DNA of 64,000 nt, taken from assembly GCF_019511645.1 (NCBI RefSeq), contig NZ_JAEUAX010000004.1:124001-188000 (forward strand), written 5' to 3'. Position numbers and translations under genes: made by a program. The notes under the pieces were generated by a model. It made no database searches and was not told the DNA's origin. It worked only from the letters and a program-made list of their open reading frames with translations. This document shows positions 35,377 to 47,113 of this stretch, piece by piece (positions within the stretch are counted from its first letter, which is position 1; the number at the start of each line of letters is the position of its first letter). This stretch comes from Microbacterium ureisolvens. Lineage in GTDB: Bacteria > Actinomycetota > Actinomycetes > Actinomycetales > Microbacteriaceae.

Positions 35377-36528
35377 CTAGGACGTGAGGACCTGGGCGGT
35401 GCCGACCGGGGCGTCCGGGCCCATCTCGTCGGCGATGCGGTTCGCCTCTTCGATGAGCGTCGCGACGATGTCGGCCTCGGGCACCGTCTTGATGACCTGG
35501 CCCTTCACGAAGATCTGCCCCTTGCCGTTGCCAGAGGCGACGCCGAGGTCGGCCTCGCGGGCCTCGCCCGGGCCGTTCACGACGCAGCCCATCACCGCGA
35601 CGCGCAGCGGCACGGTCATGTCCTTGAGCCCCTCGGTGACGTTGTCGGCCAGCGTGTAGACGTCGACCTGCGCGCGGCCGCACGAGGGGCACGAGACGAT
35701 CTCGAGCTTGCGCTCGCGGAGGTTCAGCGACTGCAGGATCTGGTGACCGACCTTGACCTCTTCGGCCGGCGGCGCGGAGAGCGAGACGCGGATCGTGTCG
35801 CCGATGCCCTCGGCGAGGAGGATGCCGAACGCCGTCGCCGACTTGATCGTGCCCTGGAAGGCGGGGCCGGCCTCGGTCACGCCGAGGTGCAGCGGCCAGT
35901 CGCCCCGCTCGGCGAGCAGCCGGTAGGCCTTGACCATGACGATCGGGTCGTTGTGCTTGACCGAGATCTTGAAGTCGTGGAAGTCGTGCTCCTCGAACAG
36001 GGACGCCTCCCACACGGCGCTCTCGACGAGCGCCTCCGGCGTCGCCTTGCCGTACTTCTCGAGCAGGCGCTTGTCGAGGGAGCCGGCGTTGACGCCGATG
36101 CGCAGCGACACCCCGGCGGCCTTCGCGGCCGCAGCGATCGCGCCGACCTGGTCGTCGAACTTCCGGATGTTGCCGGGGTTCACGCGCACCGCGCCGCAGC
36201 CGGCGTCGATCGCCTGGAAGACGTACTTCGGCTGGAAGTGGATGTCGGCGATCACCGGGATCTGGCTCTTCGCCGCGATGATGTGCAACACGTCGGCGTC
36301 GTCCTGCGACGGGACCGCAACACGGACGATCTCGCAGCCCGAAGCGGTGAGCTCGGCGATCTGCTGCAGCGTCGCATTGATGTTCGTGGTGGGCGTCGTG
36401 GTCATCGACTGGACGCTCACGGGGGCGTCGCCGCCCACCAGCACCTTGCCCACCTTGATCTGGCGGCTCTTGCGACGGGGAGCGAGCGTTTCGGGGACCT
36501 TGGGCATCCCGATGTTGACGGCTGGCAC
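35377..36528 (-). CDS. ispG: 4-hydroxy-3-methylbut-2-en-1-yl diphosphate synthase (IspG/GcpE)
   Basis: A 383-residue 4Fe-4S enzyme that makes HMBPP from MEcPP in the non-mevalonate isoprenoid pathway. The N-terminal barrel shows [21 protein letters not shown] and [12 protein letters not shown]; the C-terminal iron-sulfur site has [10 protein letters not shown] and [26 protein letters not shown] seven bases before the GTG at 36528 sets the start. In many actinobacteria it sits beside rseP and dxr; here both are on the same strand but 6 kb and 10.6 kb upstream, with unrelated genes between. Confidence 0.97.
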
Positions 36529-36612: not shown

Positions 36613-38514
36613 CTACGCGTCGGCGCGGGGCCCAGGCTGGGTGTCGGCCCCGGCCGACTCCGACCCGGTGAGCGCGCGGATCAGCGTGCGGGCGTCGTAC
36701 GGTCCGACATGGCGCACGCCGTTGATGAAGAACGTCGGCACAGAGGTGATGTCCATGGCCTCGGCGTCCAGCATGTCGTCGCGCACCCGCTCGGTGACCT
36801 TCGGCGAGCTGAGGTCCTCCTCGAAACGCTCGACGTCGAGACCGAGCTCGCGGGCGCGGCGGATGATGTCGGACGGCAGCTGGTGATCCTGGTCGGCGAA
36901 CAGGCTGCGCGAGAACTCCGGGAGCCTGCCCTGCAGATTCGCCGCCTCGGCGGCTTCCGCCGCGGCGAGCGCGTTCGGGTGCTGCCGCTCGAGCGGAGCG
37001 TGCCGCCAGACGTATCGCAGCCGGTCGCCGAGCTCCCGCCGCACCTCCTCGATCGAGCCCGACGCCTTGAGGCAGAACGGGCACTGGAAATCGCCGTACT
37101 CGACGATCGTGAGCGGCGCGTTCACATCGCCGTAGATGTGGTCGCGCTTGGGGTCGACCGGGCGCACCAGGGTGCGTCCGCCGTCGTCGTCGGGGCGCCG
37201 GGCGTCGGAGATGCGGAACATGACGGCGGCCAGGAGGAACGCCAGGACCGATGCTGCGAGCACACCCACGCGCGCCTCGTTCTGCACGTCGGGGTCGTCG
37301 ATGGCGAGATCGATGATGAAGAGCGAGATGGTGAACCCTATGCCGCACAGCATCGCGCCGCCTGCGATGCGGTCGAGCGTGAGACCGAGACCGAACTCCC
37401 CGAGCTTGAATACCTTCATGATCGCGGCCGCCCCGAAGACGCCGACGAACTTGCCGACGACCAGACCCACGATGATCGCCCAGGTGACCGGCGACTGAGC
37501 CGCCGCCGCAAGGATCGGGCCCGAGATCTCGACGCCGGCGTTGGCGAGCGCGAACAGCGGCAGGATGACGTAGGCGACGTACGGGGAGTACGCCGACTGC
37601 AGCCGCTCGTTGATCGAGATCGATTCGCGCAGGCTGTTCGCTGCCTGCCGCGCGTACTCGGTGTTCGGCGACTGGCGGAACACGCGGGCGAGCTCGAGCG
37701 CCTGCTCCACGTCGCGGCGGTTCGGCCGGTACACCGGGATCAGCAGGGCGATGGCGACCCCGGCGAGCGTCGGGTGCACACCCGACGCGAGGAACGCCAG
37801 CCAGACGATGATCGACAGTGTCGCGTAGATCGGGCCGCGCCCGCGGCGCACGTAACGGGTGAAGTAGATGCCCGCGAGCCCGACGGCGGCGACCAGGAGC
37901 GGCATCGGGGTGAAGTTCTCCGTGTAGAAGAGCGCGATGATGCTCAGCGCACCGATGTCGTCGACGACGGCGAGGGCGAGGAGGAACACCCGCAGCCGCC
38001 CTGAGGCGCGTGGCCCGATGAGGGCCAGCGCCCCGACGAGGAACGCCGTATCGGTCGAGATCACGACGCCCCACGCATTCTCCTGGCCGGAGCCCGCCGC
38101 GATCGCGAGGAAGAGCGCCGCCGGCACGAGCAGCCCCGCGACGGCGGCGATCACGGGGATCATCGCGCGAGACCAGCTCGTGAGCTCGCCGATCGCGAAC
38201 TCGCGACGCACCTCGAGGCCGACGGTGAAGAAGAAGATCGCCATGAGCGCGTCGTTGACGAGCGCATGCAGCGTGAACTCGAGATGGATGTCGCCGAACC
38301 CGATGGTCAGCTCGGTCTCCCAGAAGTCGTGGTACGACGACGCGGAGATGTTCGCCCACACGATCGCGACGACGGTCGCCAGCACGAGCAGGAGCGCGCC
38401 GGTGCGCTGCTCCCCCATGTTGCGGATGCGATCGGCGATCGACGGACCACGCCGGCGCGGGCGCGCCGGCCGTTCGGGTTCGCGCGAGCGCTCGGTCATC
38501 GTCAGCTGGGTCAT
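36613..38514 (-). CDS. nhaA: NhaA Na+/H+ antiporter fused to a DsbA-like thioredoxin domain
   Basis: A 633-residue two-domain protein. Residues ~35-425 are a complete NhaA antiporter with FFTVGLEVRREFAIGEL, ISTDTAFLVGALAL and LAVVDDIGALSIIALFY (the paired Asp that carry Na+/H+) and SSGVHPTLAGVAIALLIP-like LASGVHPTLAGV. The C-terminal ~190 residues are a DsbA/thioredoxin fold with active-site CPFC (YGDFQCPFCLKASG) and the cis-Pro loop SVPTFFING. Such fusions occur in actinobacteria; the thioredoxin part may sense or control redox state of the transporter. GGAGG seven bases before the ATG at 38514 fixes the start. Confidence 0.93.
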   Translation of the reverse strand: MTQLTMTERSREPERPARPRRRGPSIADRIRNMGEQRTGALLLVLATVVAIVWANISASSYHDFWETELTIGFGDIHLEFTLHALVNDALMAIFFFTVGLEVRREFAIGELTSWSRAMIPVIAAVAGLLVPAALFLAIAAGSGQENAWGVVISTDTAFLVGALALIGPRASGRLRVFLLALAVVDDIGALSIIALFYTENFTPMPLLVAAVGLAGIYFTRYVRRGRGPIYATLSIIVWLAFLASGVHPTLAGVAIALLIPVYRPNRRDVEQALELARVFRQSPNTEYARQAANSLRESISINERLQSAYSPYVAYVILPLFALANAGVEISGPILAAAAQSPVTWAIIVGLVVGKFVGVFGAAAIMKVFKLGEFGLGLTLDRIAGGAMLCGIGFTISLFIIDLAIDDPDVQNEARVGVLAASVLAFLLAAVMFRISDARRPDDDGGRTLVRPVDPKRDHIYGDVNAPLTIVEYGDFQCPFCLKASGSIEEVRRELGDRLRYVWRHAPLERQHPNALAAAEAAEAANLQGRLPEFSRSLFADQDHQLPSDIIRRARELGLDVERFEEDLSSPKVTERVRDDMLDAEAMDITSVPTFFINGVRHVGPYDARTLIRALTGSESAGADTQPGPRADA

Positions 38515-38611
38515 GGCGCACCTCCGCGGCGCGGGATGGGAGGAGACGGGCTCGCCCCAGTATGGTGCGTAACCCGGCGCCGAGGGGCCGATCGCCCGAT
38601 CAGGCGTGTGG

Positions 38612-38617
38612 TAGGTT
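38612..38617 (+). promoter_or_regulatory. -10 element TAGGTT of the trp leader
   Basis: TAGGTT ends six bases before the ATG of the leader peptide, so the leader mRNA probably begins at or near its start codon. Confidence 0.65.
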
Positions 38618-38623
38618 CGGCGC

Positions 38624-38659
38624 ATGTCCGCGCACCTCTCCTGGTGGCTCACCGCATAG
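38624..38659 (+). CDS. trpL: trp leader peptide with tandem Trp codons
   Basis: An 11-residue open reading frame, MSAHLSWWLTA, ending in TAG. Two adjacent TGG codons (38642-38647) lie just before the first stem of the attenuator, where a ribosome starved of charged tRNA-Trp would stall. No SD precedes it; TAGGTT six bases upstream predicts leaderless translation from the first nucleotide. It controls the PhzE-like synthase 88 bases downstream by classical attenuation. Confidence 0.85.
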   Translation: MSAHLSWWLTA

Positions 38660-38708
38660 GCGGTGGGTTCGCGCGACCACAGACCGCCCACGGGGCGGTC
38701 TTCTTTTT
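38650..38708 (+). promoter_or_regulatory. Trp attenuator: alternative stems and terminator
   Basis: Segment 1 CACCGC (38650-38655) pairs with segment 2 GCGGTG (38660-38665), a pause hairpin. Segment 2, read as GGCGGT (38659-38664), can instead pair with ACCGCC (38683-38688), an antiterminator. Segment 3, AGACCGCCC (38681-38689), pairs with segment 4, GGGCGGTCT (38693-38701), followed by TCTTTTT. Stalling at the Trp codons would mask segment 1 and favour the antiterminator, allowing synthesis of the downstream mRNA. Confidence 0.85.
38681..38708 (+). terminator. Intrinsic terminator of the trp attenuator
   Basis: A perfect 9-bp stem with a three-base ACG loop is followed by a T-rich tract (TCTTTTT). 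It is the only hairpin in the window with a clear U-tract. Confidence 0.9.
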
Positions 38709-38746
38709 CGTACGGGACACCGCCCCACGACGAAAGACGACGCACC

Positions 38747-40669
38747 ATGACCGGGCCCGCATCCCCGTCCCTTCCCGACCTCGCCGCGAGCGGTCGGCCC
38801 TTCGCGCTCATCGCGCGCGACGACCGCACCGTCGAAGTGCTGACCGGCGACGTCGTAGACGTCGACCTGCTCGCCGACATCCCGCTCAATGACGCCTCCG
38901 GCGCGCCGCGCGAGGTGCTGGCGCTGGTTCCGTTCCGCCAGGTGCGCGAGCGAGGGTTCGAGTGCCACGACGACGGCGCACCGCTGCGCTGCCTCGTCGT
39001 CACCGGCCGCGCCTCGCTGGCCCGTGAGGAGGCCCTCGCCCAGCTCCCGACCGACGCGGTCGCCCTCGACGATCCGGGCTTCGACATCGCCGATGAGGAG
39101 TACGCCGAGATCGTGCGGCGCGTGATCGCCGACGAGATCGGCCGCGGCGAGGGAGCGAACTTCGTCATCCGTCGCGACTTCACGGCGGGAGTGACGACGG
39201 ATGCCGCCACCGCCGCGTTGACATGGTTCCGGGCTCTGCTCGAGCACGAGCGCGGCGCGTACTGGACGTTCGCCGTCGTCACGCCGGGGCACGTCGCGGT
39301 GGGTGCGAGCCCGGAGGCGCACGTCAGTGCGCGCGACGGCGTCGTGACCATGAACCCGATCTCGGGCACCTTCCGCCACCCGGCCGGTGGCGCGACCCCC
39401 GAGACGCTCACGGAATTCCTCCGCTCCACGAAGGAGACCGAGGAGCTCTTCATGGTCGTCGACGAGGAGCTCAAGATGATGAGCGCCGTCTGCTCCGACG
39501 GCGGCCGCATCACGGGACCCCGTCTCAAGGAGATGTCGCGTCTCACGCACACCGAGTACGTGCTGCGAGGCCGCAGCAGGCTCGACCCGCGCGACATCCT
39601 GCGCGAGACGATGTTCGCCCCCACGGTGACCGGCTCCCCGATGCAGAACGCCTGCACCGTCATCACCCGCCACGAGACGACCCCGCGGGGCTACTACTCG
39701 GGTGTCGCGGCGCTCTTCACTCCCCGCGACACGCTCGCGGCGGGCGAGGCGACTCACGACCTCGACGCGCCGATCCTCATCCGCACGGCGTACCTGCAGG
39801 ACGGCCGGCTGCGTGTTCCCGTCGGCGCCACGCTCGTGCGGCACTCCGACCCGTACGGCGAGGTCGGCGAGACCCACGGCAAGGCCGCCGGCGTCCTCGG
39901 CGCGATCGGCGCCGTCCCCCGCGACACCGAGGCGGAGTCCGCCGCCGCGATCGACGAGGACGCCCCGACGGATGCTCCGCGCCGCCTCGCCGACGACCCG
40001 GCGATCGCCGAGCTGCTCGCGTCGCGCAACGGGCGCCTCGCCGAGTTCTGGCTCAACCCGCAGGGGTCGGGCGAGCCCGGTCCGTTCGAGGGACGCTCCG
40101 CGCTCGTCGTCGACGCCGAGGACCGTTTCACGACGATGCTCGCCCACCAGCTGCGCCACCTCGGGCTCGACGTCGAGATCTCGCCGTGGAGCGAGGTCAC
40201 CGACGCCGAGGTCGACCAGGCGGAGCTCCTCGTGACGGGGCCAGGACCAGGTGACCCGCGCGACACCGCAAGCCCCCGGATCCGTCGCATGCGCGAGGTC
40301 GTCGCGCGCCGCCGCGCCGCCGGCCGGCCGCTCCTCGCGGTGTGCCTCAGCCATCAGATCCTGGCTGACACGTTCGGCATCGACCTCGCGCCGCTCGACG
40401 CACCCCACCAGGGCCTGCAGAAATCCGTGGACGTGTTCGGCGTGCCCGCGTCGATCGGCTTCTACAACACTTTCACCGCCCGAGTGCCGGCCGGGACGAC
40501 CCAAGTCGGCGAGGCCGAGATCGCCGCCGACGCATCCGGCGACGTGTATGCGCTGCGCGGTCCCGGCCTCGCGTCGGTGCAGGGCCACCTCGAGTCGATC
40601 CTCTCGCGCGATGGAATGACGACCCTCCAGCGCCTGGTCGAACAGGCTTTCGCGCCCGTCCCCGCCTGA
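38747..40669 (+). CDS. Fused anthranilate/ADIC synthase (PhzE-like TrpE-TrpG fusion)
   Basis: A 640-residue fusion of a chorismate-utilising domain (about 1-430) and a glutamine amidotransferase domain (about 450-635). The first has PhzE-type words MNPISGTFRHPAGG, EELFMVVDEELKMMSAVC, LKEMSRLTHTEYVLRGRS, RETMFAPTVTGSP and GYYSGVAALF. The second keeps the triad C533, H614 and E616 (VCLSHQILA; QGHLESIL) and VQKSVDVFG-like LQKSVDVFGVPASIGFYNTF. The product could be anthranilate (tryptophan supply) or 2-amino-2-deoxyisochorismate. Control by a trp attenuator favours anthranilate. No other trp or phenazine genes are nearby. SD is weak (GAAAGA). Confidence 0.88.
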   Translation: MTGPASPSLPDLAASGRPFALIARDDRTVEVLTGDVVDVDLLADIPLNDASGAPREVLALVPFRQVRERGFECHDDGAPLRCLVVTGRASLAREEALAQLPTDAVALDDPGFDIADEEYAEIVRRVIADEIGRGEGANFVIRRDFTAGVTTDAATAALTWFRALLEHERGAYWTFAVVTPGHVAVGASPEAHVSARDGVVTMNPISGTFRHPAGGATPETLTEFLRSTKETEELFMVVDEELKMMSAVCSDGGRITGPRLKEMSRLTHTEYVLRGRSRLDPRDILRETMFAPTVTGSPMQNACTVITRHETTPRGYYSGVAALFTPRDTLAAGEATHDLDAPILIRTAYLQDGRLRVPVGATLVRHSDPYGEVGETHGKAAGVLGAIGAVPRDTEAESAAAIDEDAPTDAPRRLADDPAIAELLASRNGRLAEFWLNPQGSGEPGPFEGRSALVVDAEDRFTTMLAHQLRHLGLDVEISPWSEVTDAEVDQAELLVTGPGPGDPRDTASPRIRRMREVVARRRAAGRPLLAVCLSHQILADTFGIDLAPLDAPHQGLQKSVDVFGVPASIGFYNTFTARVPAGTTQVGEAEIAADASGDVYALRGPGLASVQGHLESILSRDGMTTLQRLVEQAFAPVPA

Positions 40670-40798: not shown

Positions 40799-42076
40799 TC
40801 AGCGGCCCGCGCGGGCGGCGAGCAGGCGTCGCTCGGCCTCGTTCGCGGTGAGCTCGAGGGCGCGGAGGTCCGCGGCGAGCGCCTCGTCGTCGCGGCCGAG
40901 CTCACGCAGCAGCGACGCTCGCACCGCGTGCCACAGGTGCGAGCGCGCGAGCGGACCCTCGAGAGCGTCGACTTCGGCGAGCGCGGCCGCCGCGCCCTCG
41001 ACGCGTGCGAGCGCGACCGCCCGGTTGAGCCGCGCCACCGGGGACCGGTCGTACGCGAGCAGCATGTCGTAGAGAGTGAGCACCTGCAGCCAGTCGGTGG
41101 ACGCCGCGTCGGCGGCATCCGCGTGGCACGCCGCGATCGCCGCGTGCAGCTGCCAGCGTCCCGGCCGCCGCAGGCGCGCCGCCCGCCCGAGCGCCTCTCG
41201 CGCGTCGGCGAGGAGCGTCGCGTCCCACCGCGTCCGGTCCTGCTCGGCGAGCAGCACGAGGTCCCCGTCGACCGACCTGGCCGATTCCCGCGCGCGGTGG
41301 AAGCGCAGCAGCGACAGCAGCCCCCAGCCCTCCGCGGCACGAGGGAGCGCCTCGGCGACTACCTGGGCAAGCCACAGCGCGTCGTCGGCGAGATCGCGGT
41401 CGGCCGCGGCATCCGCCCCCGCCACGAAGTGCGCCTCGCTGTACATCACCGACACGATCGTGAGCACGAGGTCCAGTCGTCGGGCGGCGTCCGCCCCCTC
41501 GGGCACCCGCAGCGGAATGCCGCTGTCGGCGATCTTGCGCTTCGCCCGCGAGATCCGCTGTCCCGTCGCCGGCTCGGTCGAGAACGTCGCCCGCGCGATC
41601 TGCGCGGTCGTGAGGCCGCACACCGCACGCAGCGTGAGAGCGAGCTGGGCGTCGGGTGCGAGCGCGGGGTGACAGCACCCGAAGAGCAGGGGAAGCCGCT
41701 CGTCGGCGGGACGCCCGTCGACGCCCGGTTCCGGCACGAGCAGCGCCACCTTGTCACGGAGAACGCGCTCGCGCCTCACCCGGTCGAGGGCGTTATGCCG
41801 CGCCGCCTGCATGAGCCAGGCGCCGGGCTTCGGCGGGATGCCCCGCCCCCGCCACTCTCCGAGCGCCTCCTCGACGGCCTCGGCGACCGCCTCCTCCGCG
41901 ACATCGAAGCTGCCGAACGAGACGGTCAGCGCCGCTGTGATGCGCGCGGACTCCTCGCGCACGACGCCGGCGAGGAGTCGATCGGATGCGGCGGCACGTG
42001 CGGGATCGGATGCTGCGGCACCGGCGCCGCCCGGAGGTTCCGGGTCGCGCGGGGCCGCAGCATCCGTTCCGGACAT
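40799..42076 (-). CDS. ECF sigma factor of the ECF42 type (DUF6596, TPR-like C-terminus)
   Basis: A 425-residue sigma factor, much longer than a standard ECF. Sigma region 2 (ARITAALTVSFGSFDVAEEAVAEAVEEAL...GAWLMQAARHNALDRVRRER) and region 4 (LALTLRAVCGLTTAQIARATFSTEPATGQRISRAKRKI) are followed by a ~200-residue helical extension (DUF6596/TPR-like). This is the ECF42 layout, in which a DGPF-domain protein is encoded next door and no anti-sigma factor is required. The ATG at 42076 overlaps the stop of the DGPF gene by one base (TGATG), so translation is coupled. Confidence 0.92.
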   Translation of the reverse strand: MSGTDAAAPRDPEPPGGAGAAASDPARAAASDRLLAGVVREESARITAALTVSFGSFDVAEEAVAEAVEEALGEWRGRGIPPKPGAWLMQAARHNALDRVRRERVLRDKVALLVPEPGVDGRPADERLPLLFGCCHPALAPDAQLALTLRAVCGLTTAQIARATFSTEPATGQRISRAKRKIADSGIPLRVPEGADAARRLDLVLTIVSVMYSEAHFVAGADAAADRDLADDALWLAQVVAEALPRAAEGWGLLSLLRFHRARESARSVDGDLVLLAEQDRTRWDATLLADAREALGRAARLRRPGRWQLHAAIAACHADAADAASTDWLQVLTLYDMLLAYDRSPVARLNRAVALARVEGAAAALAEVDALEGPLARSHLWHAVRASLLRELGRDDEALAADLRALELTANEAERRLLAARAGR

Positions 42077-42441
42077 CACTCGAATTGGCTGTAGTCGACG
42101 ACCATCGGCCGGATCTCGACGGCCACTCCCGGCAGCTCCAGCGATGGCCACGTCTTGACGAGATCGATCGCCGCGTCGAGATCCGGCACGTCGATGACGC
42201 TGAAGCCGCCGATGACCTCCTTCGCCTCGGAGAACGGCCCGTCTGCGACGACGGGGCCGTCGTCACCCGAGCGCACCGTCGTCGCGGTGCTCACCGGGTG
42301 CAGCTCCGCACCCGAGTCGTCGATCTTGTCGGCGTTCGTGCCGAACCACTCGTAGATGCGTCCGTAGACCTCCTGCCGGCGCTCTTCGGGCACCGCGGCG
42401 TCGAGCTCGGGGGTGGAGGTGAACATGATCACGTACTTCAC
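42076..42441 (-). CDS. YCII-related DGPF-domain protein
   Basis: A 121-residue protein of the YciI-like family with the motif DGPFSEAKEVIGGFSVIDVPDLDAAIDLVKTWP, found next to ECF42 sigma factors across actinobacteria, where it is often the main regulated target. It starts KYVIMFTSTPELD, typical of the group. Its biochemical role is unknown. A GTG start with AAAGGA eight bases upstream is used. It is the first gene of a two-gene unit with the sigma factor. Confidence 0.93.
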   Translation of the reverse strand: MKYVIMFTSTPELDAAVPEERRQEVYGRIYEWFGTNADKIDDSGAELHPVSTATTVRSGDDGPVVADGPFSEAKEVIGGFSVIDVPDLDAAIDLVKTWPSLELPGVAVEIRPMVVDYSQFE

Positions 42442-42545: not shown

Positions 42546-43841
42546 TCAGAAGAGCGTGACCGGGTTGAAGAGGTCGGCGAGGATCAGGACCCCGCCCATC
42601 ACCAGCAGCGCCACGAACACGGCGAACGTCAACGGCACCAGCTTGGTCGCATCGACCGGCTTCGGCGGCGGGCGACGGAAGAGCTTGGCCCACACCCGCT
42701 TGATGCCCTCCCAGAGCGCCACCGCGATGTGGCCGCCATCCAACGGCAGGAGCGGAATGAGATTGAACACGAACAGGGCGATGTTCAGCGACGCGAGCAG
42801 CGACAGGAAGCCTGCGACGCGGTTGAGGACGGGCGAATCGGCGGCCGCGACCTCGCCGGACAGGCGGCTCGCGCCGACGATGCTGAGCGGGCCGTTCGGG
42901 TCGCGCTCCTGACCGGTCACGAGATCGACGCCGGTCTGCCACACCTTGGCAGGCAGCTGCCAGATGATCCCCGCGACCGCGCCCACGTTCTGAACGGCCA
43001 TCTGGGGTCCTGCCCAGATCGGCTGCTGCACGTACTCGACGGTCGGGCCGATGCCGACGAATCCGACCTCCTCGGTGGTGGTCGTGCCGTCGGCGGCCGT
43101 CACCTCGGTCTGGATCGTCGCGGGTGTGACCTGCAGCGTCTGCTGTCCGCCGTCGCGCTCGACGACGAAGGTGAGCTGCTCACCGGGCGAGGAGCGGATG
43201 ATGGCGGATGCCTCGGTGAAGTCGGCGACCGGCTCCCCGTCGATCGAGACGATGACGTCGCCCGGCTGGATGCCGGCCGCCTCCGCGGGAGCCGCGGGAG
43301 AGGAGTCGGTGCACTCGGCGGAGGTGGCGGTCGGAACGCACTCCGAGAGGCGCGCGACCTCCGTCGTCGCCGTCTGGATGCCGATGCCGGTCAGCAGGAT
43401 CGAGAACAGCACGATGGCGAAGAAGAAGTTCATCAGCGGCCCGCCGAGCATCACGATGATGCGCTTGTGGATCGGCAGGCGGTAGAAGACGTGCGTGTCG
43501 CCCTCACCCTGCAGCGTCTCGTCGTTCGCGTCGCGGGCGTCCTGCACCATCGTCGCGAAGAAGCCACCGGCGGCGCGTCCGTCGCGTCGGGCTGCCTGCG
43601 GCGACGGCGGGTACATGCCGGCCATCGAGATGTAGCCGCCGAGCGGGATCGCCTTGAATCCGTACTCGGTGCCACGCCAGCGCTTCGACCACAGCGTCGG
43701 GCCGAACCCGATCATGTACTGGCCGACGCGCACCCCGAACTTCTTGGCCGGCCACAGGTGACCGAGCTCGTGCAGCGCGATCGACACGGCGAGGCCCACG
43801 ACCATGAGGGCGACACCGATGACGAACGCGAGGATCTCCAC
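42546..43841 (-). CDS. rseP: Site-2 intramembrane metalloprotease (RseP/Rip1)
   Basis: A 431-residue membrane zinc protease that cleaves regulatory transmembrane proteins such as anti-sigma factors. The first helix carries HELGH (24-28) and the last region carries the second zinc motif NLIPLLPLDGGHI. Between them lies a PDZ domain (EAAGIQPGDVIVSIDGEPVADFTEASAIIRSSPGEQLTFVVERDG). Four hydrophobic helices are seen. TACCGT six bases before the GTG at 43841 gives a leaderless start. It normally sits between dxr and ispG; here it is separated from both. Confidence 0.96.
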   Translation of the reverse strand: MEILAFVIGVALMVVGLAVSIALHELGHLWPAKKFGVRVGQYMIGFGPTLWSKRWRGTEYGFKAIPLGGYISMAGMYPPSPQAARRDGRAAGGFFATMVQDARDANDETLQGEGDTHVFYRLPIHKRIIVMLGGPLMNFFFAIVLFSILLTGIGIQTATTEVARLSECVPTATSAECTDSSPAAPAEAAGIQPGDVIVSIDGEPVADFTEASAIIRSSPGEQLTFVVERDGGQQTLQVTPATIQTEVTAADGTTTTEEVGFVGIGPTVEYVQQPIWAGPQMAVQNVGAVAGIIWQLPAKVWQTGVDLVTGQERDPNGPLSIVGASRLSGEVAAADSPVLNRVAGFLSLLASLNIALFVFNLIPLLPLDGGHIAVALWEGIKRVWAKLFRRPPPKPVDATKLVPLTFAVFVALLVMGGVLILADLFNPVTLF

Positions 43842-43847
43842 ACGCTC

Positions 43848-43853
43848 ACGGTA
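43848..43853 (-). promoter_or_regulatory. -10 element TACCGT of rseP
   Basis: TACCGT on the minus strand ends six bases before the GTG at 43841, with no SD. Confidence 0.6.
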
Positions 43854-43925
43854 CCCGCGCCAGCCTTTGAGTTGGGTGTGACGACGGATCGCCGCAGGCG
43901 GCATGAGAGCGCCTCGCTCCTCCCG

Positions 43926-43931
43926 TAGGCT
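43926..43931 (+). promoter_or_regulatory. Putative -10 element TAGGCT of the membrane protein gene at 43950
   Basis: Same hexamer as the leaderless genes but 18 bases before the GTG, leaving a short leader that contains the SD GAGGAGG. It shows that the hexamer also serves leadered genes. Confidence 0.5.
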
Positions 43932-43949
43932 CGACCCCGAGGAGGAGCC

Positions 43950-44513
43950 GTGACCCCACGCCACGTGCGCGCGCTGCGCGGCACCGCCGCCGCGTGGATC
44001 GCGACCGTCGTGGCCGCCACGGCACACACCCTCGGCGGGGGCGGCGCCCCATCGCCCGCCTTCGTGACGGCGGTCGGCATCCTCGCGGCTCCCCTGGCGG
44101 TCGCCTTCGTCGGCCGACGGCTCTCGGCCTGGCGCATCGGCGCCACCGTGCTCGCGAGCCAGGCACTGTTCCACGTCGCCTTCGCCGTCACGGCAGACGC
44201 CGATCCCGCCGCGCTCCACGGTCACCACGTGACGCGCCTCGGCGGCGACCTCAGCGCCCTCGTAGTCCCCGATGCGCCCATGCTCGCCGCGCACGTGTTC
44301 GCCGCCATCGCGACCGTCGCCGGGCTGTACGGCGGGGAACGGATGCTGCGCGCCCTGGGCCGCGGCATCCGTTCGCTGTTCTCCCGCCTGCGCCCCGTGG
44401 CGCCCCGGCCGTCTCAGCCGCGGTCGGCGCCTCGGCACGCCGGCCGCGCGCTCCTCGCGGCGCGGATCGTCCTGTCGGACGTCTCGCGGCGCGGTCCTCC
44501 CGTCTTCGTCTGA
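43950..44513 (+). CDS. Small multi-helix membrane protein beside YcnI, putative metal-linked
   Basis: A 187-residue protein with about four helices, opening with AAWIATVVAATAHTLGGGGAPSP and containing the His-rich loop LHGHHVTRLGGDL. An Arg/Pro-rich tail is probably cytoplasmic. I do not recognise a named family; similar proteins precede ycnI genes in actinobacteria. The histidines and the adjacent copper-binding YcnI suggest a role in copper handling, which is inference. SD GAGGAGG three bases before the GTG makes the start clear. Confidence 0.65.
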   Translation: MTPRHVRALRGTAAAWIATVVAATAHTLGGGGAPSPAFVTAVGILAAPLAVAFVGRRLSAWRIGATVLASQALFHVAFAVTADADPAALHGHHVTRLGGDLSALVVPDAPMLAAHVFAAIATVAGLYGGERMLRALGRGIRSLFSRLRPVAPRPSQPRSAPRHAGRALLAARIVLSDVSRRGPPVFV

Positions 44514-45370: not shown

Positions 45371-45448
45371 TCGCAACTCGTGCCGGTCGTCGGGCGAGCG
45401 GGCCGCCCGCCGCTCGACGACCGGCCCCCGTGCGAAGATGGATGCGCC

Positions 45449-47113
45449 ATGCCGACCGACGCGCCCTCGAACCTGCCCCCGGTACTGCGTCCCGACGCGC
45501 CGCCGACTCACTCGCTCAAAGACCTCGCGGCACGCTTCGCCGTCGACGTCCGCGGTGACGTCGCCGACGCCACGCTGACCGGTCTCACACTCGCGACCGC
45601 CGACCTGCGACCCGGCGACGTCTTCGTCGCGGTGCAGGGGGTCAACCGCCACGGCGCCGAGTTCGCCGCGACGGCAGCCGAGAAGGGCGCTGTCGCGGTC
45701 GTGACGGATGCTGCCGGAGCCGACGCCGCCGCCGCGAGCGGGCTGCCCGTGGTGCTGGTGGACAACCCTCGCGCGATCCTCGGCGAGCTGTCGGCCTGGG
45801 TCTACAGCACAGGCCGCGACGACGACCTCCCCACGCTGTTCGGCACGACCGGCACCAACGGCAAGACGAGCGTCTCGCACCTGCTCGAGGGCATCCTCGG
45901 GCAGATCGGCGTCACCACCGGCCTGTCGTCCACCGCCGAGCGCCACATCGCCGGGCAGGTCATCGTGTCGCGGCTCACGACCCCAGAGGCGTACGAGATG
46001 CACGCCCTCCTCGCGCTCATGCGCGAACGCGGCGTGGAGGCCGTCGCGGTCGAGGTGAGCGCGCAGGCGCTCAGCCGCCGCCGCGTCGACGGCATCGTGT
46101 TCGACGTCGCCGGCTTCACCAACCTCACGCACGACCACCTCGACGACTACGCCGACATGCGCGAGTACTTCGAGGCGAAGCTGCCGCTGTTCCGCGCCGA
46201 CCGCGCGCGACGCGCCGTCGTGTGCGTCGACTCCGAGCCCGGCGCCGAGGTCGTGGCGCGCAGCGAGGTGCCTACCGTGACGGTGGGCACGCCCGCGCTG
46301 GCTTCGGATCCGGATGCCGCCGCCGCCGCCGACTGGGTGGTCGAGATCCTCGACGAGCGCCAGGTCGGCACCGAGTTCCGCCTCACCGCGCGCGACGGAC
46401 GCACGCTCACCACCCTCGTCCCCGTGATCGGGCGCCACATGGCGGCCAACGCCGGGCTCGCGATCGTGATGATCCTCGAGGGCGGCTACGCGTGGGAGCG
46501 GCTGGTCGCGGCGCTGGACGGCGCCCGGATCGAGGCGTACCTGCCGGGGCGCACGGAGCTCGTCTCGGGCGAGACCGGCCCCGCGGTCTACGTCGACTTC
46601 GGCCACTCCCCCGACGCGTTCGAGAAGACGCTCGCGGCCGTGCGCCGCGTCACGCCGGGAAAGGTCGTGATGCTCTTCGGCGCCGACGGCGACCGGGACG
46701 CCACGAAGCGCCACGACATGGGCCGCACCGGCGTCCAGGGCAGCGACATCCTGGTCATCACCGATCACCACCCGCGTCACGAGGACCCGGACTCGATCCG
46801 CGCGACCCTCGTCGAGGGGGCGCGGCGGGCACAGCCGGATGCCGAGATCCATGAGTACTCGCCGCCCGAGCGCGCGATCATCGAGGCCGTGGCCCTCGTC
46901 GGCGACGGCGACGCCATCCTCTGGGCCGGCCCCGGTCACCAGGACTACCGCGACATCCGCGGCGTCCGCACGCCGTACTCCGCACGCGAGCTCGCCCGTC
47001 GCGCGCTGCGCGAGGCGGGGTGGCCCGTGCCCGAGCCGCACTGGCCGGTGCCGTACCCGGAGGACGTGACCCCGGCCTCCGACCCCCTGCGCCCCGTCTA
47101 CCCGGAGGCCTGA
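45449..47113 (+). CDS. Mur ligase family protein, MurE-like
   Basis: A 554-residue ATP-dependent amide ligase. It has the P-loop GTTGTNGKTS (132-141), the carbamylated-Lys region YFEAKLPLF (K244), and TNLTHDHLDDY and GRHMAANAGLAIVM typical of MurE. The segment equivalent to the amino-acid-selecting DNPR of diaminopimelate-adding MurE reads HHPR (440-443 in TDHHPRHEDP), so substrate choice is unclear. It is far from any dcw division cluster, and may be a second Mur ligase or the genome's Lys/Orn-type MurE. No clear SD or -10 spacing was found. It converges on dxr. Confidence 0.88.
   Translation: MPTDAPSNLPPVLRPDAPPTHSLKDLAARFAVDVRGDVADATLTGLTLATADLRPGDVFVAVQGVNRHGAEFAATAAEKGAVAVVTDAAGADAAAASGLPVVLVDNPRAILGELSAWVYSTGRDDDLPTLFGTTGTNGKTSVSHLLEGILGQIGVTTGLSSTAERHIAGQVIVSRLTTPEAYEMHALLALMRERGVEAVAVEVSAQALSRRRVDGIVFDVAGFTNLTHDHLDDYADMREYFEAKLPLFRADRARRAVVCVDSEPGAEVVARSEVPTVTVGTPALASDPDAAAAADWVVEILDERQVGTEFRLTARDGRTLTTLVPVIGRHMAANAGLAIVMILEGGYAWERLVAALDGARIEAYLPGRTELVSGETGPAVYVDFGHSPDAFEKTLAAVRRVTPGKVVMLFGADGDRDATKRHDMGRTGVQGSDILVITDHHPRHEDPDSIRATLVEGARRAQPDAEIHEYSPPERAIIEAVALVGDGDAILWAGPGHQDYRDIRGVRTPYSARELARRALREAGWPVPEPHWPVPYPEDVTPASDPLRPVYPEA

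Follow-up and report, generated by a model that had tools for sequence, protein, structure and literature searches.

Upstream of the gene for a fused, PhzE-type synthase in Microbacterium ureisolvens lies a short reading frame with two adjacent tryptophan codons, followed by RNA segments that can pair in alternative ways and by a run of T's (Table 1). The window, i.e., the whole stretch of DNA that was analysed, comprises 64,000 nucleotides. Within it, TAGGTT (38612-38617), made an extended -10 element by the TGG directly 5' of it (38609-38611), is separated by six bases (CGGCGC) from the ATG at 38624 of the leader ORF, which ends with the stop codon TAG (38657-38659). Three complementarities join the segments: CACCGC (38650-38655) with GCGGTG (38660-38665) for 1:2, GGCGGT (38659-38664) with ACCGCC (38683-38688) for 2:3, and GACCGCC (38682-38688) with GGCGGTC (38694-38700) for 3:4. 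The synthase gene begins with the ATG at 38747, 3' of the T-tract. Direct reading found the -10 element, the six-base gap, MSAHLSWWLTA with its tandem TGG, the four segments, and the T-tract just where the initial annotation had placed them.

Table 1. Features of the leader region and the synthase gene (positions within the window)
Feature	Position	Strand	Basis
Extended -10 element TGnTAnnnT (TGGTAGGTT)	38609..38617	+	Read from sequence
Leader ORF, MSAHLSWWLTA + stop, predicted leaderless	38624..38659	+	Sequence, genus conservation
P0 (5'-end helix) 5' arm, codons 1-3; pairs with 38670-38677	38626..38632	+	Fold, covariation
Tandem Trp codons TGG TGG, predicted sensor	38642..38647	+	Sequence, genus leaders
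Segment 1, 1:2 hairpin partner of segment 2	38647..38655	+	Fold, cross-group test
Segment 2 (GGCGGT...), beginning on the last base of the stop codon	38659..38668	+	Sequence, fold
P0 (5'-end helix) 3' arm	38670..38677	+	Fold, covariation
Segment 3 (AGACCGCCC)	38681..38689	+	Fold, genus alignment
Segment 4 (GGGCGGTCT), terminator 3' arm	38693..38701	+	Fold, genus alignment
T-tract TTCTTTTT of terminator	38701..38708	+	Read from sequence
PhzE-type fused synthase of 640 aa, with a chorismate-binding and a class I glutamine amidotransferase domain	38747..40669	+	Sequence comparison

The RNA from 38624 to 38747 folds with an energy of -56.7 kcal/mol (z -3.66; 0/200 shuffles as good), and its minimum-energy fold contains 1:2 and 3:4 simultaneously. 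The locus has what marks a trp attenuator: a leader ORF with tandem Trp codons, an intrinsic terminator (3:4 plus U-tract) 5' of the gene, and a 2:3 helix exclusive of it. That a complete trp attenuator stands before the fused PhzE-type synthase, as had been proposed, is supported by this anatomy, by the fold, and by the conservation described below. When 401 bases were scanned with the Trp_leader model of Rfam (RF00513), which has the same four-segment logic as the locus, the match scored 28.1 bits (E 0.00091), short of the model's gathering score of 41; a scan of the whole window at gathering score gave no match. The trp leader of E. coli has a 5' UTR and a Shine-Dalgarno sequence, unlike the leader predicted here.

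Divergent from the leader is a gene (36616-38514, minus strand) encoding an NhaA-type Na+/H+ antiporter domain and then a DsbA/thioredoxin-like domain in one protein; its chosen start codon lies about 110 bp from the start of the leader. Directly downstream of the synthase gene, on the opposite strand (40802-42151, minus), a protein with a DUF6596 domain is encoded; such proteins are presumably sigma-factor-like. Other neighbours (42549-44438, minus; 35380-36528, minus; 45380-47110, plus) encode an M50 peptidase with PDZ domains, GcpE, and a Mur ligase.

The fused synthase and its relatives

The best relative of known structure is 3r74 (residues 19-632 aligned, 495.7 bits; next best, 68.4 bits), which we take to be PhzE; its deposited name is 'Anthranilate/para-aminobenzoate synthases component I'. 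The fused synthase falls far under the TrpE cut-offs, with 91.4 vs 517.7 bits for TIGR00564 and 90.8 vs 693 for NF010086. The host genome (4.3 Mb) encodes three chorismate-binding proteins: a PabB-like protein (328.1 bits, just under the cut-off of 328.4), an isochorismate synthase-like protein (234, with a cut-off of 224.75), and the fused synthase. No other candidate for an anthranilate synthase was found in that genome. The fused gene is present in 117 of 119 genomes of the genus (G044 has only a weak match and G103 none), and the TIGR00564 cut-off for TrpE is passed by none of the 119. Since no genome of the genus lies above the cut-off and no other candidate appeared, the fused enzyme is, for Microbacterium, the strongest candidate to be the only anthranilate synthase. 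The description 'PhzE-like' in the initial annotation is fair by sequence, given the match to 3r74, and can be refined: the enzyme is probably the anthranilate synthase of the tryptophan pathway, and the only one in the host genome.

Two genomes of the collection carry additional genes. G090, which comes nearest to the TIGR00564 cut-off, encodes a near-canonical TrpE (G090:C22:199580-200995; 488.8 vs the cut-off of 517.7) in addition to a fused gene with its leader (L113). G097 has a second copy of the fused synthase (L122, G097:C1:1314917-1315417), 44% identical and without a Trp leader, possibly an enzyme of secondary metabolism.

More widely, the fused gene was found in 14 of 296 genomes of a phylum sample (E <= 1e-60) and in 147 of 394 genomes of a class sample (alignment search, E <= 1e-100). 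Canonical actinobacterial TrpE (NF010086, E <= 1e-100) was found in 290 of the latter 394. Inspection of the lists by eye showed canonical TrpE in 83 of the 147 carriers and not in the other 64; these last are 12 Microbacterium, 36 members of family f8, 14 of family f89, G749, and G690.

Conservation of the leader and its promoter

Tandem Trp codons were a condition of the search, and the start of the leader was picked among the starts of each Trp-Trp ORF by the presence of a -10 element; the fair count is therefore that of loci offering such a start. In Microbacterium, this is 116 of 117 orthologous upstream regions, each with TAnnnT 6 or 7 bases 5' of the start. The sequence of the sole exception (L070) begins, at a contig end, 139 nt 5' of the match. 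In a second set of 64 loci counted as Microbacterium, which overlaps the first in part and includes three MAGs titled only to higher rank (L157, L165, L192), leader and -10 are present in 62, and the two misses (L163, L188) are cut by contig ends. The 116 leader ORFs encode 9 to 12 amino acids, in 80 distinct peptides. The distance between the first Trp codon and segment 2 is 17 nt in 89 leaders, 18 in 24, 19 in two, and 16 in one, and in all 116 the start of segment 2 lies between -1 and +1 relative to the end of the stop codon.

TAnnnT ends 6 bases (81 leaders) or 7 bases (35) 5' of the start codon and is preceded by TGn in 112 of the 116, and no further TAnnnT ends within 34 nt of the leader start in any of them. 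As background, TAnnnT stands at 6-7 bases for 2 of 1563 other ATG/GTG codons in the upstream regions of the genus. A conserved -35 box was sought and not found, 4 of the 116 leaders matching the consensus tried. An SD-like 4-mer precedes the start in none of the 116, nor was one seen ahead of 149 distinct leaders, actual or putative, whereas 43 of the 116 downstream genes have one (with starts picked by a simple rule); this contrast is real but partial. A -10 hexamer 6-8 nt 5' of the start codon with no Shine-Dalgarno sequence is the pattern of actinobacterial leaderless transcripts, and from the promoter spacing the leader transcript is predicted to begin on the A of the ATG or on a neighbouring base.

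An RNA model of the leader, built partly from genomes later searched, found one strong copy (at least 46 bits) in 34 of 35 genomes of the genus and none in G023, where the leader is cut by a contig end. Second matches in the genus reached at most 32.3 bits, several of them on the strand opposite the leader, and outside the genus matches of at most 34 bits appeared in 12 of 23 genomes. The simpler pattern TAnnnT-N6-ATG-(6 to 30)-TGGTGG occurs in the host's own genome at five places, including the attenuator locus, vs two in a backward control.

Beyond Microbacterium, a Trp-Trp leader with TAnnnT at 6 (20 loci), 7 (47), or 8 (4) bases was found at 71 of 106 loci, a collection in which some genomes are represented twice and 60 stretches from the class search were hand-chosen across genera rather than random. 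Agromyces, Plantibacter, Promicromonospora, Myceligenerans, Jiangella, Micromonospora, Kutzneria, and Rhodococcus are among the carriers, as is family f5, taken as Streptomyces judging from the leader peptide. Kept in these 71 loci and in 116 of 117 upstream regions of the genus, the leader with its -10 is no chance match, an explanation that was considered and rejected.

A Trp-Trp leader with a -10 is absent from the other 35 of the 106 loci, some of which are likely paralogues or true phenazine genes. One of the 35 (L284) has a Trp-Trp ORF without a -10, which was judged spurious and not a leader. No leader was found at the loci fetched from Serinicoccus, Ornithinimicrobium, P. aeruginosa PA7, f89, and g244, nor upstream of the paralogues L122, L138, and L145-L147. 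Several loci lacking the leader (genus code g244 and kin) are from genomes with no canonical TrpE match, and the attenuator is therefore not indispensable. In family f8, loci L278-L283, L314, L315, and L317 (g244, g292) have the fused gene, no canonical TrpE match, and no Trp-Trp leader upstream; to judge from these sequences, regulation of the fused gene in g244 and g292 must differ. Each of two loci of family f90 has a leader-like ORF with a single Trp codon (SWRP... in L270, LWRAV... in L275), the TAnnnT standing at 7 bases in the first and 6 in the second. Perhaps these represent a natural weakening of the sensor.

Pairing among the segments and at the 5' end

Within the genus, pairing was assessed on an alignment (A1) of 80 leaders below 95% identity, out of the 116. 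Across genera, partners were swapped between 23 genus-like groups, with at most 12 leaders per group and 20,000 permutations; merging likely duplicate genera (23 to 15 groups) changed the results little. The terminator helix is paired in 560 of 560 cells of A1, with double changes in two of its pairs, and a terminator hairpin with at least three T in the next eight bases is present in 143 of 148 distinct leaders from the 23 groups. At least four T in those eight bases are found in 102 of the 148, the T-tracts of some relatives being weak. When partners were swapped, own partners paired better for 3:4 (0/20,000 permutations as good, with arms that had been pre-selected as a hairpin) and for 1:2 (0/20,000, with regions that overlap by 5 nt). 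The 2:3 helix, paired in 97.3% of cells, is uninformative within the genus because it is almost invariant: no covariation was found for it in A1, and slid versions even score higher. Across groups, own partners pair better for 2:3 as well (22/20,000; reversed-sequence control, 474/20,000).

An earlier test of single helices against shuffles, with segment 3 shortened, had given p <= 0.05 in 7 of 142 leaders for 2:3 and in 35 of 142 for 1:2; two of each count (L276, L277) are artefacts of empty regions, and one row (L284) is the ORF rejected above. That test was superseded by the partner swap, and single helices compared with shuffles are weaker evidence than the conservation of the leader. RNAalifold, applied to A1, settled on the terminator and a short hairpin spanning the Trp codons and picked neither 1:2 nor the helix at the 5' end (P0) described below. 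The comparison of related genomes that had been suggested for checking the stems favours 1:2 and 3:4, favours 2:3 only modestly, and adds P0.

P0 joins the first codons of the leader to RNA just 3' of segment 2, with compensatory changes across genera: the pairing is TACGCG/CGCGTA in Jiangella, for example, and in L244, where it takes in the start codon as well, GTGACA/TGTCAC. Among the 80 genus leaders, where its 5' arm falls in codons 2-4, P0 is paired in 82.8% of cells (a level reached by 5 of 500 shuffles), changes on both sides have occurred in six of its seven pairs (2/500), and its covariation score is 0.130 vs a shuffled mean of 0.100 (0/500), counts that are not probabilities because the leaders are related. 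Slid versions have covariation scores of at most 0.074, and P0 slid by -3 has 17 double-change cells vs 16 for P0 itself. In the cross-group test, P0 has -11.8 kcal/mol with its own partner vs -9.3 with swapped partners (0/20,000 permutations as good). A reversed-order control gave -9.15 vs -8.35 kcal/mol (64/20,000), and a decoy downstream gave no effect (18,107/20,000). The own partner is favoured in 19 of the 23 groups; the preference fails in Plantibacter, Blastococcus, a Pseudonocardiales MAG, and f6g12. No description of a conserved start-codon-proximal helix in trp leaders was recognised among the literature matches listed, mostly without subscription papers.

How the attenuator may work

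From the anatomy, conservation, and complementarity just described, we infer a start site, a behaviour of the ribosome, and a response to tryptophan. RNA polymerase would begin transcription on the A of the leader ATG or on a neighbouring base, as the spacing of the -10 suggests, and a ribosome would load at the 5' AUG. When Trp-tRNA is scarce, the ribosome would stall at codons 7-8, thereby covering the 5' arm of P0 together with segment 1. Segment 2, which starts 17 nt on from the first base of TGG TGG, would be left free to pair with segment 3, and transcription would continue. When Trp-tRNA is ample, a ribosome at the stop codon would mask segments 1 and 2, and 3:4 would terminate transcription. 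With no translation, P0 and 1:2 would lock the 5' end and segment 2, 3:4 would form, and the system would be off by default. Since P0 pairs the first codons of the leader, an untranslated leader would hide its own 5' end and default to termination. Overall, we put the probability at roughly 0.88 that the locus is a trp transcription attenuator of the classical, ribosome-mediated type, that its transcript is leaderless, and that it governs the anthranilate synthase of the tryptophan pathway.

P0 could have a further role, one that we put forward tentatively and consider rather less likely than its absence. The attenuator might work in one shot, P0 sealing the 5' tip after the polymerase has moved about 55 nt, so that only an early-loading ribosome senses Trp. 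If this were so, later ribosomes would be excluded, failure to load would mean termination, and leaderless initiation would be a required part of the timing. Such timing would explain why all the Trp-Trp leaders found, whether in Microbacterium, in Streptomyces-like genomes, or in Rhodococcus, have their -10 at 6-8 bases.

Similar leaders have been described before. Work by Neshat et al. in 2014 on C. glutamicum reportedly points to leaderless attenuator leaders, as does, to go by its title, that of Canestrari et al. in 2020 on mycobacterial cysteine leaders; Lin, Paradkar and Vining are said, again by title, to have placed an anthranilate synthase gene of Streptomyces venezuelae under a trp attenuator in 1998. 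No trp attenuator of Microbacterium was recognised among the literature matches listed, which were mostly without subscription papers. According to PMC8079986, TrpL1 of S. lividans, 5' of a monocistronic trpE, is transcribed leaderless, as are several other attenuator leaders of the strain. It resembles the locus in its tandem Trp codons, in its hairpins and U-rich stretch, and in preceding a monocistronic gene for an anthranilate synthase (a probable one at the locus), but its leader is of 18 amino acids with three Trp, whereas that of the Microbacterium locus is of 11 with two. Peptides near-identical to the S. lividans leader (MFAHSTQNWWWTAHPAAH) precede fused-gene orthologues in family f5, and S. 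lividans trpE would itself appear to be a fused gene. The f5 carriers differ from Microbacterium in having canonical TrpE as well, when the profile lists are compared.

The ilvB leader of C. diphtheriae is likewise reported leaderless (PMC5784534). The ilvBNC leader of C. glutamicum is discussed as leaderless, with a first hairpin that is said to block translation initiation and to act as an anti-antiterminator, much as predicted at the locus (PMC11857589); it differs in responding to branched-chain amino acids and in the gene it precedes. In light of these three reports, a leaderless trp attenuator is of a known kind, and the view in the initial annotation that leaderless initiation is unusual for attenuation is not supported. 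For Corynebacterium and Streptomyces, classical trp attenuators were predicted by Seliverstov et al. (2005; PMC1262725), who cite experimental work in S. venezuelae. Their leaders carry double or triple UGG, and antiterminator and terminator share complementary triples, as at the locus, which however comes from Microbacterium. The attenuator alignment of Seliverstov et al. spans, by its legend, the Trp codons to the terminator, so a helix near the start codon would not show in it, and the word 'leaderless' does not occur in the available text of PMC1262725.

Three other explanations address different aspects of the locus and are not mutually exclusive. A functional attenuator might be transcribed from further upstream, its leader ORF translated from a normal 5' UTR: the start at the locus rests on promoter spacing, and no start was detected for the trp leader of C. 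diphtheriae (PMC5784534). That none of the 149 leaders or putative leaders has an SD-like 4-mer before it, that in the genus leaders the sole nearby TAnnnT sits 6-7 nt 5' of the start, usually with TGn, and that the S. lividans leader is reported leaderless (PMC8079986) make such a start highly improbable. It is very unlikely, too, that the attenuator is simply borrowed by a secondary-metabolism gene for a phenazine-type 2-amino-2-deoxyisochorismate synthase. The match to 3r74 and scores far below the TrpE cut-offs would suit such an enzyme, but then the host would be left with no candidate anthranilate synthase, as would a genus in which 0 of 119 genomes pass the TrpE cut-off and 117 carry the fused gene; moreover, it is the 44%-identical paralogue of G097 that has no leader.

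Finally, the Trp-dependent step might be translational or Rho-dependent, the 3:4 hairpin serving only as a processing or stability element. The weak T-tracts of some relatives, with 102 of 148 reaching four T, would be in keeping with this, but 143 of the 148 leaders combine the hairpin with at least three T, and the locus has TTCTTTTT; this reading is very unlikely.

If the locus is the leaderless trp attenuator proposed here, its leader of about 11 codons, apparently lacking a 5' UTR, makes it a compact and widely conserved natural system that would allow joint tests of leaderless initiation, transcription-translation coupling, and termination. As for the enzyme, a PhzE-type fused protein apparently replaces TrpE in Microbacterium, and the label 'phenazine' on the family in such genomes would probably mislead.
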